Assembly: GCF_015070855.1 (NCBI RefSeq)
Contig: NZ_JADDIX010000099.1
Location: forward strand, 171,019 to 235,018
DNA from: Pseudomonas lopnurensis
GTDB taxonomy: Bacteria; Pseudomonadota; Gammaproteobacteria; Pseudomonadales; Pseudomonadaceae
Direction: 5' to 3'
DNA length: 64,000 nt
Of the stretch, positions 25,181 to 40,105 are shown in pieces. Each line of letters starts with the position of its first letter. Position 1 is the stretch's first letter. Position numbers and translations under genes: made by a program. Under the pieces are notes generated by a model. The model saw only the letters and a program-made list of their open reading frames with translations. It was not told the origin of the DNA and did not search any database.

Positions 25181-25742
25181 GTTCATATCCTCATGCTGAT
25201 GCTGATCGAGCGAACACGGACCTGCGCAGCAAAGGCGGCGGCGCAGCCGGACCTCGGTACGGCCTCGCCCTGAAGGTCTCGCGATCCTGGAACCGGCATG
25301 GCGGCGCGAGCGCTCGCAACCCGTCGCGAAGCGAGTTGCCACCCTGCGGGATGCATGCGACCCAAGGATGGTAGGCCCGACAGCAAGCGCTTATTACCTG
25401 GCGCAATGTGCATACGGCTATGCGTTGCATTCATGAATCCTCGGCGGGTAACGACGTCGCATGTCGATCGGGCAGGGCGATGGCGAAATGGCTCTGTGCT
25501 GGTGTCCAGACAGATCGTGCCGCGCCGCCCGACGCTCCGCTCATGCACATGGCTTATGACCGTATGCGGTTTTGGCGGGGCAGTCCCTTTGCATACGACG
25601 CTTAAGATGCCTCCTGGTTTCCCTTCTATAGTGATTCGAGTGATTCGTAGATAGAACTTCGGTGCGCTGGCAGACGGAGCGTGCAAGGCTGCTGAAGCCG
25701 TTTAGCCGGCGTGGATGGCGATCCGCTCAAATGGGGCATTTC
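25181..25742. other. Divergent regulatory region between paoABC and iorAB
   Basis: 562 bases without a gene I can support, holding the promoters of two divergent molybdenum hydroxylase operons. The one distinct feature is a tandem 9-base repeat, GTGATTCGA followed by GTGATTCGT at 25631-25648, about 95 bases before iorA. It could be a regulator site. Both ends are more A+T-rich than the flanking coding DNA. Confidence 0.5.
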
Positions 25743-26201
25743 ATGATCACGCTCAATATCAATGGCGAGGAGAAGTCCGTCGCGGTCGCTCCTGATACGC
25801 CGCTGCTGTGGGTGCTGCGCGATACCTTGCAACTCACGGGCACCAAGTACGGTTGTGGTATGTCGTTGTGCGGCGCGTGCACCGTGCATATGGACGGACA
25901 GGCGGTGCGTTCCTGTAGCACGCCGGTTTCCGCAGCAGCCGGGGCAAAGGTCATCACCATCGAGGGCGTTGGCGAAGGCGTGACAGGCAAGGCGGTGCAA
26001 CAGGCCTGGCAGGGGCTCGATGTCGTGCAGTGCGGTTACTGTCAGTCCGGGCAGATCATGAGTGCCGTGGCCTTGCTGGACGGCAACCGCACGCCCACGG
26101 ATGCCGATATCGATCAGGCGATGGGCGGCAACCTCTGCCGCTGCGCGACCTATGTACGCATCCGCGCCGCCATCCACGACGCGGCCAGGTCGTTGGCCTG
26201 A
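25743..26201 (+). CDS. iorA: 2Fe-2S subunit of an IorA-type molybdenum hydroxylase
   Basis: 152 residues with two plant-ferredoxin-like and [2Fe-2S]-binding domains: [17 protein letters not shown] plus RSC for the first cluster, and [16 protein letters not shown] plus [17 protein letters not shown] for the second. IorAB (isoquinoline 1-oxidoreductase) is the type enzyme, but the family also includes aldehyde dehydrogenases, so the substrate is open. The start has GGGG 6 bases upstream; an in-frame extension to 25662 is not family-like. There is no Tat signal of its own, so it would be carried by IorB. It ends 16 bases before iorB. Confidence 0.9.
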
Positions 26202-26217
26202 CGCACGAGGTGAAGAC

Positions 26218-28401
26218 ATGACTCGCCCCATCGAGAACCACAGCCGGCGTCGTTTTCTCAAGGGCGCGGCGGGCCTGACGCTGGCGATCTATTTCCCCTG
26301 GTCCTTCGCGCAGAATGCGGCGAAGCGGGAGGCGCCGGCCGCTACGTTCGAACCCAACGCCTTTCTACGGATCGGCGAGGACAACGCGGTCACCGTGATC
26401 GCCAAGCACCTGGAAATGGGGCAGGGGACCTATACGGGCCTCGCCACCATCGTCGCCGAGGAGCTGGATGCGGACTGGTCGCAGGTGCGGGTCGAAAGCG
26501 CACCCGCCGACGCCAGTCGCTACAACAACCTGAACTGGGGTCCCATGCAGGGCACCGGAGGCAGCAGCGCCATCGCCAATTCCTGGGAACAGCTGCGCCA
26601 GGCAGGCGCTGCGGCCCGGGCGATGCTGGTGGCCGCGGCGGTGCAGCGTTGGCAGGTTCCCGCAGACTCGATCACGGTCGCGGAGGGGGTGCTCCGCCAC
26701 ACGGCATCGGGCCGGCAGGCGAGTTTCGGCGAACTGGCCCGCGCCGCCGCCGAGCAGCCGGTGCCGGAACAGGTGAGGCTCAAGAAACCGAGCGACTTCA
26801 AGCTGATCGGCCAGCGCCTCGCGCGCAAGGACTCGGCGGAAAAGACCAACGGCAGCGCGATCTACACCCAGGATATCCATCTGCCCGACATGCTGACCGC
26901 CGTCGTCGCGCACCCGCCGCGGTTCGGCGCGATGGTGGCATCCTACGACGCCGAACCGGCGCTCGCCATCGACGGGGTGGTCGAGGTGGTGGCGATTCCC
27001 ACCGGCGTTGCAGTGCTTGCCCGCGATACCTGGACTGCCAAGCGTGGGCGTGACGCCCTGCGTGTCGAGTGGAATGAAAGCGCAGCGCTCCGGCTGAGCT
27101 CGGCGCGGGCGTTCGAGCAGTTCCGCGCGTTGGCCGAAACGCCTGGCAACGTCGCCCGCGAGGAGGGCGACAGCGAGGCAGCGCTTGGCAGCGCCGCGCG
27201 CACCCTGGAGGCCGAATACGATTTTCCCTACCTCGCGCATGCGGCCATGGAGCCGATGAACTGCGTGATCAGGCTCAACGGGGAGGGGTGCGACACCTGG
27301 TTCGGGGCGCAGATGCAAACCCACGACCAGGCGGTGCTGGCCGAGCTGTTCGGCCTCGAACCCGAGCAGGTGCGTATCCATACCCTCTATGCCGGCGGCA
27401 GCTTCGGTCGTCGTGCCAGCAAGGGGGGCGATTACATCCTGGAAACCGCGCACATCGTCAAGGCCATCGACGGCCGCGCGCCGGTGAAGCTGGTGTGGCT
27501 GCGTGAGGATGATATGCAGGGCGGCAATTACCGGCCCATGTTCCATCATCGCCTGCGGGCCGGCCTGGATGCGCAGGGGCAACTGGTCGCCTGGCAGCAC
27601 CGTCTGGTCGGCCAGTCCGTCGCCGCCGGTTCACCATTCGAGGGCGCGATCCAGAACGGTATCGATGCCACCTCGGTGGAGGGCGCGGCGAATCTGCCCT
27701 ATGCCATACCCAACATGCGGGTCGACCTTCACACACCCGGCGATATCGGGGTGCCGGTGCAATGGTGGCGGGCGGTGGGTTCCACTCATACCGCATTCTC
27801 CACCGAATGCTTCATCGACGAGCTGGCCCAGGCAGCCGGACAGGATCCGGTGGCCTGGCGCCTGGCGATGCTCGAGGCGCACCCGCGTCATGCCGGCGTA
27901 TTGAAACTGGTCGCAGAAAAGGCCGGCTGGAGCCAGCCGCTGGAATCGGGCAAGAACGGTGAACGACGCGGTCGCGGTGTCGCGGTGCATGAAGCCTTCG
28001 GCTCCTTCGTGGCGCAGGTCGCCGAGGTCACGGTAGAGAGCGATGGGCGTTATCGCGTCGACCGTGTCGTCTGCGCCGTGGATTGCGGCATCGTGGTCAA
28101 CCCCGACGTCGTGCTGGCCCAGGTCGAAGGCGGCGTGGGTTTCGCTCTGTCCGCAGCGATGAACGAAGCCATCACCTTCACCGACGGCAACGTGGATCAA
28201 TCCAACTTCCACGACTATTCGCCGCTGCGTATTGCCGACATGCCCAGGGTCGAGCTGCATATCGTCCCGTCCACGGCCGCACCTACGGGCATCGGCGAGC
28301 CCCCGGTCGCGCCACTGGCGCCGGCCGTGGTGAATGCCTTGGCGGCAGCTACCGGCAAACGTGTGCGGCGTCTACCGATCGGCCAGCAACTGAGTGGTTG
28401 A
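26218..28401 (+). CDS. iorB: Molybdenum-binding subunit of an IorB-type hydroxylase
   Basis: The large catalytic subunit, 727 residues. It has a twin-arginine signal (NHSRRRFLKGAAGLTLAIYF), then the duplicated Mo-binding domains with KHLEMGQGTYTGLATIVAEE, GPMQGTGGSSAIANS, AGGSFGRRASKGGDYILE and the late IGEPPVAPLAPAVVNA, where the catalytic Glu lies. The pair lacks a FAD subunit; such enzymes normally donate electrons to a cytochrome c, but no cytochrome gene follows here. GAGGTGA precedes the ATG. The frame is open back to 26062, but that part overlaps iorA. Confidence 0.92.
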   Translation: MTRPIENHSRRRFLKGAAGLTLAIYFPWSFAQNAAKREAPAATFEPNAFLRIGEDNAVTVIAKHLEMGQGTYTGLATIVAEELDADWSQVRVESAPADASRYNNLNWGPMQGTGGSSAIANSWEQLRQAGAAARAMLVAAAVQRWQVPADSITVAEGVLRHTASGRQASFGELARAAAEQPVPEQVRLKKPSDFKLIGQRLARKDSAEKTNGSAIYTQDIHLPDMLTAVVAHPPRFGAMVASYDAEPALAIDGVVEVVAIPTGVAVLARDTWTAKRGRDALRVEWNESAALRLSSARAFEQFRALAETPGNVAREEGDSEAALGSAARTLEAEYDFPYLAHAAMEPMNCVIRLNGEGCDTWFGAQMQTHDQAVLAELFGLEPEQVRIHTLYAGGSFGRRASKGGDYILETAHIVKAIDGRAPVKLVWLREDDMQGGNYRPMFHHRLRAGLDAQGQLVAWQHRLVGQSVAAGSPFEGAIQNGIDATSVEGAANLPYAIPNMRVDLHTPGDIGVPVQWWRAVGSTHTAFSTECFIDELAQAAGQDPVAWRLAMLEAHPRHAGVLKLVAEKAGWSQPLESGKNGERRGRGVAVHEAFGSFVAQVAEVTVESDGRYRVDRVVCAVDCGIVVNPDVVLAQVEGGVGFALSAAMNEAITFTDGNVDQSNFHDYSPLRIADMPRVELHIVPSTAAPTGIGEPPVAPLAPAVVNALAAATGKRVRRLPIGQQLSG

Positions 28402-28705: not shown

Positions 28706-29200
28706 ATGCTGCTTCGTTTATTGGTCGCCGGCGCCTTGAGCGGGTTCTGTCTGCATGCCCTCGCGCAGGATCACGGCCACGATCACCACGCCACGGCGCA
28801 TCAATCCGCGAGCGATCTGTCCGTCAGCCAGGCCTGGTCGCGGGCGATGCCGCCCAGCGCACCGACCGGCGCCGTCTATTTCGCTCTGGAAAATCGCGGC
28901 GAGCAGGATCGGCGCCTGATCGCCGCACAGACACCGCGAGCCGACAAGGCCGAGCTGCACACTCATCTGCATGAAGGCGGCATGATGAAGATGCAGCAGG
29001 TCGAGTCGGTTGCGGTACCCGCTGCGGCCAAGGTGGAATTCAAGCCGGGGGGCAACCACGTAATGCTGTTCGGCCTGAAGCAGCCGCTGGTCGCGGGTGA
29101 GAGTTTCCCGCTCACGCTGCAGTTCGAAGGCGGTATCGAGGTCACCACCGAGGTGAGCATCGAGGACGAGGCGCCCACGTCCGATGCCATGCATCACTGA
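28706..29200 (+). CDS. Periplasmic copper chaperone PCu(A)C
   Basis: 164 residues: a Sec signal peptide (MLLRLLVAGALSGFCLHALA), then a His-rich stretch QDHGHDHHATAHQ, then the PCu(A)C cupredoxin-like domain. The copper ligands of the family are visible as LHTHLHEGGMMKMQQVE and, 30 or so residues on, GGNHVMLFGLKQPL. Such proteins deliver Cu(I) to the Cu(A) or Cu(B) site of cytochrome oxidases. It stands alone, with no cytochrome oxidase or Sco gene beside it. It converges on the glutathione reductase gene across a terminator. Confidence 0.92.
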   Translation: MLLRLLVAGALSGFCLHALAQDHGHDHHATAHQSASDLSVSQAWSRAMPPSAPTGAVYFALENRGEQDRRLIAAQTPRADKAELHTHLHEGGMMKMQQVESVAVPAAAKVEFKPGGNHVMLFGLKQPLVAGESFPLTLQFEGGIEVTTEVSIEDEAPTSDAMHH

Positions 29201-32470: not shown

Positions 32471-32497
32471 TAAAGAACAGGGATATTTGGCCGATAT
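32471..32497 (+). promoter_or_regulatory. FliA (sigma-28) promoter of the chemoreceptor
   Basis: TAAAGAAC (32471-32478), an 11-base spacer, then GCCGATAT (32490-32497). This is nearly the sigma-28 consensus TAAAGTTT-N11-GCCGATAA, with exact spacing and 7 of 8 bases in the -10. It lies about 100 bases before the chemoreceptor ATG, so this receptor is expected to be made together with flagella. Confidence 0.8.
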
Positions 32498-32596
32498 ATG
32501 GCCATATACCATCGCGGCCGTCAGCGCCCTGGTAGGCAGAACTACAACAACGATGCGAAACGGCATCCCCGCGTGGCAGCAGTACTAAGGACCGAC

Positions 32597-34219
32597 ATGA
32601 ACAACAGCTTCGCTTCTCGACAAATGTCCGTACAGGCCAAGATCAACCTGGCTCTGGTGCTGGTGTTGGTGGTGATCATGTCCGCCTCGCTGTTCATCGC
32701 CGCCAGCACCGAAAAGCGCCTGGTGCTGCAGGTCGTGGAGCAGCAGACCAAGGATGCCGCCGACTCCTATTTCGACAGCATCAATACCATGATGCTGACC
32801 GGCACCATGGCCCAGCGCGACGTGCTGCGTAACAAGATCCTGGCCCGCCCGGGCGTCATCGACGCCCGTATCGTGCGCGGTGACGAAGTCACCAAGGCCT
32901 TCGGCCCCGGTTACGAGCACCAGGCGCCTGGCGACGCGCTGGACCGTCGCGCCCTGTCCGGCGAAGCCATCATGGAAGTGAGCGAACAAGACGGTGGCCG
33001 TGTGCTCACGGTCATCAACCCGATCCTCGCCCACACCGATTACCGCGGCACCAACTGCCTGACCTGCCACCAGGTGAAGGAAAACGCCATCATGGGGGCC
33101 GTGCGCATCAGTTACGACCTCAAGGCGCTGGATCGCGAGGTCGACCGCAACATCATGATCACCGCGGGCATCCAGCTGTTGCTGTTGATCGTCGGCGTGG
33201 TGGTGATGGGGCTGACCGTGCGCCACGTGATCCTGCGTCGCATCAACGCCATGCGCCACACCATGGAAGCGATGACCGAGGACGAGGACCTCAGCCGCAG
33301 CGTCGCGGTCGGTGCCCAGGACGAAGTCGGTGCCATGGGCCATGCCTTCAACCGGATGATCGGCAAGTTCCGCCACAGCCTCGAAGCGGTCGCCAGCGTC
33401 ACCCATCAGCTCAGCGACGTTTCCGACCGGGTTTCGCAGGTGGCGGAAAAGACCCTGACTGCGGTCAACGAGCAGCGCAGCGAAACCGACATGGTTGCCT
33501 CGGCGATGAACGAGATGAGCGCTACGGTGCAGGAAGTCGCGCGCAATGCCAGCCAGACCGCTACAGCTTCCAGTGGCGCCGACAGCGAATCCAGGGCCGG
33601 CGTGCAAGTCGCCACCGAGGCGCTCGACGGCATCGAGGTACTGATTCACGAAATAGAGAAGGCGGCCCAGGTCATCCAGCAGGTCGAACACGACAGCGCC
33701 AACATCGACATGGTGCTCGGCGTGATCAACGGCATCGCAGAGCAGACCAACCTGCTGGCGCTGAACGCCGCCATCGAAGCGGCCCGCGCCGGTGAACAGG
33801 GCCGTGGCTTCGCCGTCGTGGCCGATGAAGTCCGCACCCTGGCCTCGCGTACGCAGAAGTCCACCGAGGAAATCCAGGCCATGATCGAGCAGCTGCAGGG
33901 CGGCGTGCGCAACGCGGTGCAGGCCATGGAAGCGGCGCAGCAGCGTGCCCGCCTGGGTTCGCAGTGCGTGGAGAAGGCCGCGCAGAGCCTCGGCGTCATC
34001 GCCAACGAGGTCGGCACCATCAACGAGATGAACACGCAGATCGCCACGGCGGCCGAACAGCAGAGCGCCGTGGCCGAAGAGATCAACCGCAACATCACCA
34101 CCATCAGCCTGATCGCCGATACCACCTCGACGGATGCGACCCAGACCTCGCAGATCAGCGACGAGCTGGTTCACCTGGCGGCGGAACTGAACCGCCTGGT
34201 CGGGCAATTCAAGCTCTGA
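32597..34219 (+). CDS. Methyl-accepting chemotaxis protein with a periplasmic heme-binding motif
   Basis: A membrane chemoreceptor of 540 residues. TM1 is about 12-33, a periplasmic sensor about 34-180, TM2 about 183-208, then HAMP and a long signalling coiled coil with the hairpin tip [21 protein letters not shown] and [17 protein letters not shown]. The sensor contains NCLTCH (C154, C157, H158), a CXXCH c-type heme attachment site, just before TM2. Heme-bearing chemoreceptors of this sort sense redox state or gases such as NO or O2. No CheR-binding pentapeptide tail is seen. It is driven by a FliA promoter and followed by hemN. Confidence 0.94.
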
Positions 34220-40018: not shown

Positions 40019-40105
40019 GCCCGGATGGCGAAATTGGTATACGCAAGAGACTTAAAATCTCTCATCCGAAAGGGTATGCGGGTTCGACCCCCGCTCCGGG
40101 CACCA
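40019..40105 (+). tRNA. tRNA-Leu (anticodon TAA)
   Basis: 87 bases including an encoded CCA. Acceptor stem GCCCGGA pairs with TCCGGGC; the anticodon loop is CTTAAAA (anticodon TAA, reading UUA); a long variable arm (CTCATCCGAAAGGGTATG region) is typical of class II leucine tRNA; the T arm is GGGTTCGACCCCC. All parts are intact. Confidence 0.97.

Follow-up and report, generated by a model that had tools for sequence, protein, structure and literature searches.

We describe a chemoreceptor gene of Pseudomonas lopnurensis whose product, as judged from sequence homology and a structural model, is a heme-c chemoreceptor and a divergent new member of the kind represented by GSU0582 and GSU0935 of Geobacter sulfurreducens. 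The gene lies in the window, by which we mean the whole 64,000-nucleotide stretch of DNA that was analyzed. The explanation that best accounts for the evidence taken together, and that we consider very probable, is a receptor that would sense periplasmic redox state and/or NO through a heme c ligated by His158 and Met66, signal through its HAMP domain to CheA, and be transcribed from a FliA-type promoter. A preliminary description of this DNA had proposed a heme-based redox or gas chemoreceptor, and this reading withstands the computational tests available, in that the CXXCH motif is invariant and the predicted fold, the profile homology and the register of a ligand methionine all agree with it. 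Periplasmic heme-c chemoreceptors were first described, and have mainly been characterized, in Geobacter and Desulfovibrio. The occurrence of this family across Stutzerimonas offers a motile organism in which to ask whether it is the redox state of the periplasm or NO that guides swimming; the literature searched held no behavioral role for a receptor of the Stutzerimonas type.

Table 1 Features of the receptor locus (window positions)
Feature	Position	Strand	Basis
Putative FliA (sigma-28) promoter, TAAAGAAC-N11-GCCGATAT	32471..32497	+	Sequence; genome count; orthologue footprint
Promoter part TAAAGAAC	32471..32478	+	
Promoter spacer, 11 nt	32479..32489	+	
Promoter part GCCGATAT	32490..32497	+	
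Chemoreceptor gene, 540 aa	32597..34219	+	ORF; AAGGA element just 5′ of start
Periplasmic sensor domain, residues ~38-186, Cache/PAS-like	32708..33154	+	AF2 pLDDT 86; Foldseek 3b42; GSU0582/GSU0935 profile match
Invariant 12-residue segment, residues 59-70, end of long N-terminal helix, holds Met66	32771..32806	+	49 representatives; L67 nearly invariant
Met66, predicted sixth (distal) heme ligand	32792..32794	+	Aligns with conserved PF21563 Met, and through it with Met60 of GSU0935
CLTCH heme-c attachment motif, C154, C157, H158	33056..33070	+	110/110 loci; 28/28 distant relatives
HAMP domain, residues 209-257	33221..33367	+	PF00672, E 2.8e-12
MCP signaling domain, best stretch residues 351-504	33647..34108	+	PF00015, E 7.6e-47

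Sensor domain, fold and family

The receptor is laid out as TM1, periplasmic domain, TM2, HAMP and MCP signaling domain (Table 1), and thus shares with GSU0582 and GSU0935 a pair of transmembrane helices flanking a periplasmic domain of ~135-150 residues, followed by HAMP and MCP domains. The start of the gene at 32597 is supported by the AAGGA element upstream, since this recurs in orthologues, where CTAAGGA is the second commonest upstream heptamer (19 of 44 regions); position 32471, from which the preliminary description had counted the gene, is instead the first base of the promoter. An open frame of 540 codons also runs antisense over almost the whole gene (32585-34207, minus strand), for which codon usage at high G+C probably accounts.

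The CXXCH motif had been placed at C154-H158 of the sensor, ahead of TM2, and these residue numbers are exact. Its conservation among homologues, which had been set beforehand as a test, extends to all 110 related loci, with identities as low as 37%; since the window's own locus is counted among them and the genomes come from both collections, they do not represent 110 independent species. Among more distant relatives, for which 28 strong hits were kept from a phylum-wide profile search that also returned many HAMP-only matches at weak E-values, CXXCH and M66 were each present in 28 of 28, while M65 was not invariant. Across 49 representatives the invariant columns fall into two clusters, one at residues 58-70 and the other comprising the CXXCH region with G151, G167, V169 and Y173. 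The sensor occurs once in its own genome and, at E < 1e-30, in 43 of the 199 Pseudomonadaceae genomes that were sampled. A species-level collection yielded 79 sensor loci, mostly from Stutzerimonas, the other carriers being Denitrificimonas, Thiopseudomonas, gammaproteobacterial MAGs, Pseudoalteromonas, Shewanella and Cognaticolwellia.

Structurally, an AlphaFold2 model built from 49 sequences (pLDDT 86) predicts a long TM1 helix, a second helix and a four-stranded sheet. The CXXCH helix (154-158) is placed between strands 134-144 and 165-174, which are strands 3 and 4, so that the motif precedes the last sensor strand as in the GSU0582/GSU0935 type; a Cache fold with a CXXCH helix between strands 3 and 4 is also what defines sCache_heme domains (PMC12889525). 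In a Foldseek search the first match to the periplasmic model was 3b42 (GSU0935; E 3.5e-6, probability 1.00), albeit with a TM-score of only 0.41-0.49, an rmsd of 14 Å and ~16-18% identity. The high rmsd and low TM-score plausibly reflect the helix-swapped dimer in the 3b42 crystal (PMC3460858). The next matches were WalK, PctC and Cache domains, among them those of CitA and DcuS.

Sequence searches of the sensor were less telling. A Pfam scan of the 540-residue protein gave no match above cut-off for this domain, phmmer run directly with the sensor found nothing in the PDB, and the family profile retrieved from the PDB just HAMP/TM and CXXCH-only cytochrome matches. Profile-profile comparison was therefore needed, using profiles of PF21563 (Mcp40H-20_sensor) and PF11845 members collected in this analysis. 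HHalign aligned the periplasmic profile with that of PF21563 members at 96.8% (E 2.8e-10, 137 columns) and, with the two cysteines and the histidine masked, still at 93.4%; the controls, which were column-shuffled profiles and the other own-genome MCPs tested, reached at most 1.5%. PF21563 members in turn match 3b47 and 3b42 by sequence (8e-11 and 4e-10), which links this profile homology to the crystallized sensors. Against PF11845, the C-terminal 67 columns aligned in register at 96.1%, a likeness that is largely borne by the motif because masking lowers it to 42%.

The curated models themselves are not reached. The window protein gave no match at the PF21563 gathering cut-off, 6 of 49 homologues matched weakly (best E 5.1e-4) and no protein of its own genome matched at E ≤ 0.001; for PF11845 the window protein again fell short of the cut-off and 15 of 49 homologues matched weakly (best E 8.9e-4). 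Because it stays below both Pfam cut-offs, it is by its fold, its profile and the register of its ligands that we count the receptor as a divergent member. The two curated Pfam models for heme-Cache sensors thus both miss a sizeable gammaproteobacterial branch. Membership in PF11845 (Tll0287-like) was considered and rejected, both on this score and because C154 and C157 are the sole cysteines of the periplasmic domain, which leaves none for the distal Cys ligand of the stand-alone type. The receptor shares with the sCache_heme/DUF3365/Tll0287-like proteins the Cache fold and the position of the CXXCH helix, but has Met in place of the distal Cys. Another protein of this genome is of the stand-alone Tll0287-like heme-Cache type, with a PF11845 match of 76 bits and the motif CLGCH (L111, G000:C50:10570-10926, minus strand); redox roles have been suggested for the stand-alone sCache_heme type (PMC12889525).

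Alignment with PF21563 members identifies residue 110 of the 3b42 chain as the motif histidine; since this is His144, Met60 is residue 26 of the chain. Met60 of GSU0935 is matched in the alignment by the consensus Met of PF21563, and that Met in turn by M66, invariant in our family, so that C154/C157/H158/M66 correspond to C140/C143/H144/M60. M66 is accordingly placed to be the distal ligand, a role that we predict from this register. Ligation by His144 and Met60 has been seen in one GSU0935 monomer, and in the Geobacter sensors Met is bound when the heme is reduced, released upon oxidation and displaced by CO and NO, their spin and ligation state depending on whether the heme is oxidized (potentials, -156 and -251 mV; PMC8396549).

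Judging from the homology and the model, the sensor almost certainly carries covalently bound heme. The contrary reading is that of an ordinary Cache ligand sensor in which CXXCH holds no heme but binds a metal or forms a disulfide; in its favor, no Pfam heme model is reached. We regard it as very improbable in view of the profile homology, over almost the whole domain, to two crystallized heme-c sensors whose CXXCH and distal Met line up with those of the receptor, the invariance of H158, and the presence in the genome of a cytochrome c maturation gene, CcmF (CcmF_C match).

Taken as a heme-c receptor, the protein would hold one covalent c-type heme in its periplasmic Cache-like domain, with thioethers to C154 and C157, H158 as proximal and M66 as distal ligand. 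By analogy with GSU0935/GSU0582, M66 would be a ligand of the iron in its reduced state; oxidation would free it, and NO (or CO) would take its place. Loss of this tie between Met and heme would move the long helices leading into TM1 and TM2 and, through HAMP and the MCP tip, alter CheA activity and with it swimming direction. The stimulus would be periplasmic redox state and/or NO.

Among known systems, GSU0935 and GSU0582 (3B42, 3B47) come closest, with a common TM-sensor-TM-HAMP-MCP layout, the same place for the heme motif, a Met at the distal position, the best fold match and the 137-column homology. The window receptor differs from them in its low identity in the fold alignment (~16-18%), in lying below the Pfam cut-off, in a longer segment before CXXCH, in its different bacterial group and in its FliA-type promoter. 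DcrA of Desulfovibrio vulgaris, likened here by description, is likewise a chemoreceptor with a periplasmic c-type heme, but has an additional cytoplasmic PAS domain (PMC8396549). CtpM of Pseudomonas (NF058645) has a similar HAMP/signaling half (residues 176-539); identity with it was rejected, as the score of 331.9 bits compares with an equivalog cut-off of 900 bits and the sensor is unmatched.

A conserved, putative FliA-type promoter

The preliminary description had also called the upstream promoter near-perfect. This holds for its TAAAG and GCCGATA cores, but not overall: relative to the Pseudomonas FliA consensus, TAAAGTTT-N11-GCCGATAA (PMC7286023), it agrees at 5/8 and 7/8 positions, or 12/16. 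Within the window it is the sole zero-mismatch TAAAG-N14-GCCGATA, a pattern for which shuffling gives an expectation of 1.49 sites when up to two mismatches are allowed. The match exceeds what chance would give: the 4.9-Mb genome contains four occurrences of TAAAG-N14-GCCGATAW (reversed-pattern control, one), and one of the three others likewise lies 5′ of a chemoreceptor gene. When own-genome chemoreceptor genes whose upstream sequence was available over 327 bp or more were surveyed for T[AC]AAG-N14-GCCGATA, this receptor and three others carried such a site, and promoters of this kind are therefore ordinary here.

Conservation carries more weight. Of all heptamers, GCCGATA is the most frequent in 44 non-redundant regions upstream of orthologues, present in 37 as against 0.8 expected from shuffled sequence (maximum 3). 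It usually follows T[ACT][AT]AG at the right spacing, ~110 nt 5′ of the start codon, and the wider two-box pattern is found in 29 of the 44. Spacers diverge among orthologous promoters while the boxes stay, and the recurrence of GCCGATA is strong evidence of a phylogenetic footprint of a promoter of the TAAAGTTT-N11-GCCGATAA type at a conserved upstream position. The genome also encodes a FliA-type sigma factor (above the NCBIfam cut-off), and transcription of the receptor gene would most likely depend on this flagellar sigma factor.

Candidate stimuli

Two readings of the stimulus subdivide the explanation preferred here, and the confidences that we attach to the readings do not sum to one. 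In the first, the receptor would be a pure redox (energy-taxis) sensor, whose heme would pass electrons to and from periplasmic partners, Met ligation being set by the oxidation state alone. An invariant Met where GSU0935 has its ligand is consistent with this, as are the oxidation-dependent spin and ligation of the Geobacter homologues and the fact that many carriers are respiratory marine bacteria. By sequence such a sensor is indistinguishable from a gas sensor, and we hold this reading to be a real possibility, if one short of an even chance.

The second reading is a specific chemoreceptor for NO as a denitrification intermediate: NO on ferrous heme would displace M66, and the cell would avoid or find the zone of NO or nitrite, a response that might thus take either sign. 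Geobacter homologues bind NO with displacement of Met60 (PMC8396549), and an sCache_heme domain of the signaling type has NO off-rates typical of NO sensors (PMC12889525). The window's own genome contains genes for cytochrome cd1 nitrite reductase (nirS) and nosZ. Among the 199 Pseudomonadaceae, nirS was found in 37 of 43 receptor carriers versus 22 of 156 non-carriers (Fisher 1e-18), and nosZ in 36 of 43 versus 35 of 156; within the receptor's own genus, nirS was present in 24 of 26 carriers versus 2 of 6 non-carriers (p 0.006). These tests ignore shared ancestry, so that the association is suggested rather than proved, and phylogeny confounds that with nirS. Three of the six nirS-less carriers (G082, G098, G105) come from strongly fragmented assemblies, of which two are 83-85% complete; against the NO reading, two complete carriers of the same genus (G118, G125) lack both nirS and nosZ, and 22 nirS genomes lack the receptor. 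Relatives are also plentiful in Pseudoalteromonas and Shewanella, which to our knowledge are not known mainly as denitrifiers, and a strictly NO- or denitrification-related role is therefore not general. On balance we put forward NO specificity tentatively.

Stutzerimonas is a classic denitrification genus. A narrower proposal would be that this gammaproteobacterial heme-c family, lying below the Pfam cut-offs, serves specifically for NO taxis in the lineage of Stutzerimonas, so that flagellated denitrifiers would steer by the NO from their own periplasmic cytochrome cd1 nitrite reductase with a His/Met heme c as the switch; in this full form it is rather unlikely.

An oxygen (aerotaxis) receptor appears improbable. 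DcrA, the Desulfovibrio heme-c chemoreceptor, has been reported to sense oxygen or redox (PMC8396549; title of a work cited in PMC13401364), and hemN (TIGR00538, 603 bits), ~230 bp downstream of the receptor gene, hints at low-oxygen life. On the other hand, a characterized signaling-type sCache_heme domain forms no stable O2 complex (PMC12889525), and the proximity of hemN is not kept outside Stutzerimonas-type loci. The preliminary description rightly placed hemN directly downstream and took this to fit a microaerobic or denitrifying life. It is directly next in all 28 Stutzerimonas-type loci with enough flank and was found in none of the searched flanks of other relatives, and we thus regard it as the synteny of one lineage rather than a sign of a shared pathway, and reject it as functional evidence.

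Neighboring genes and other observations

Outside Stutzerimonas the receptor's neighbors are unrelated, including, for example, RND efflux genes and clpS/clpA (named by eye). In four Chromatiales-like MAG relatives (L049, L057, L074, L076) RND efflux genes lie close 3′ of the receptor, comprising a membrane fusion protein and, if the flank extends far enough, the pump (named by eye). Most Pseudoalteromonas contigs (L079-L110), from many independent assemblies, stop ~2.3-3 kb 5′ of the receptor, which points to a repeat at that place, for instance an rRNA operon.

Elsewhere in the genome, one chemoreceptor signaling domain is broken by an in-frame TGA (L134, G000:C100:121056-121577, minus strand), possibly a pseudogene or an assembly error. 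Within the window, genes for the small (2Fe-2S) and large subunits of a molybdopterin aldehyde/xanthine-type oxidoreductase (25662-28401, plus strand; large subunit named by eye) are followed by a copper-chaperone-like gene (28706-29200; named by eye), and a tRNA-Leu (TAA) gene (40019-40105, plus strand) after a DinG/Rad3-type helicase gene is a candidate site for integrated elements.
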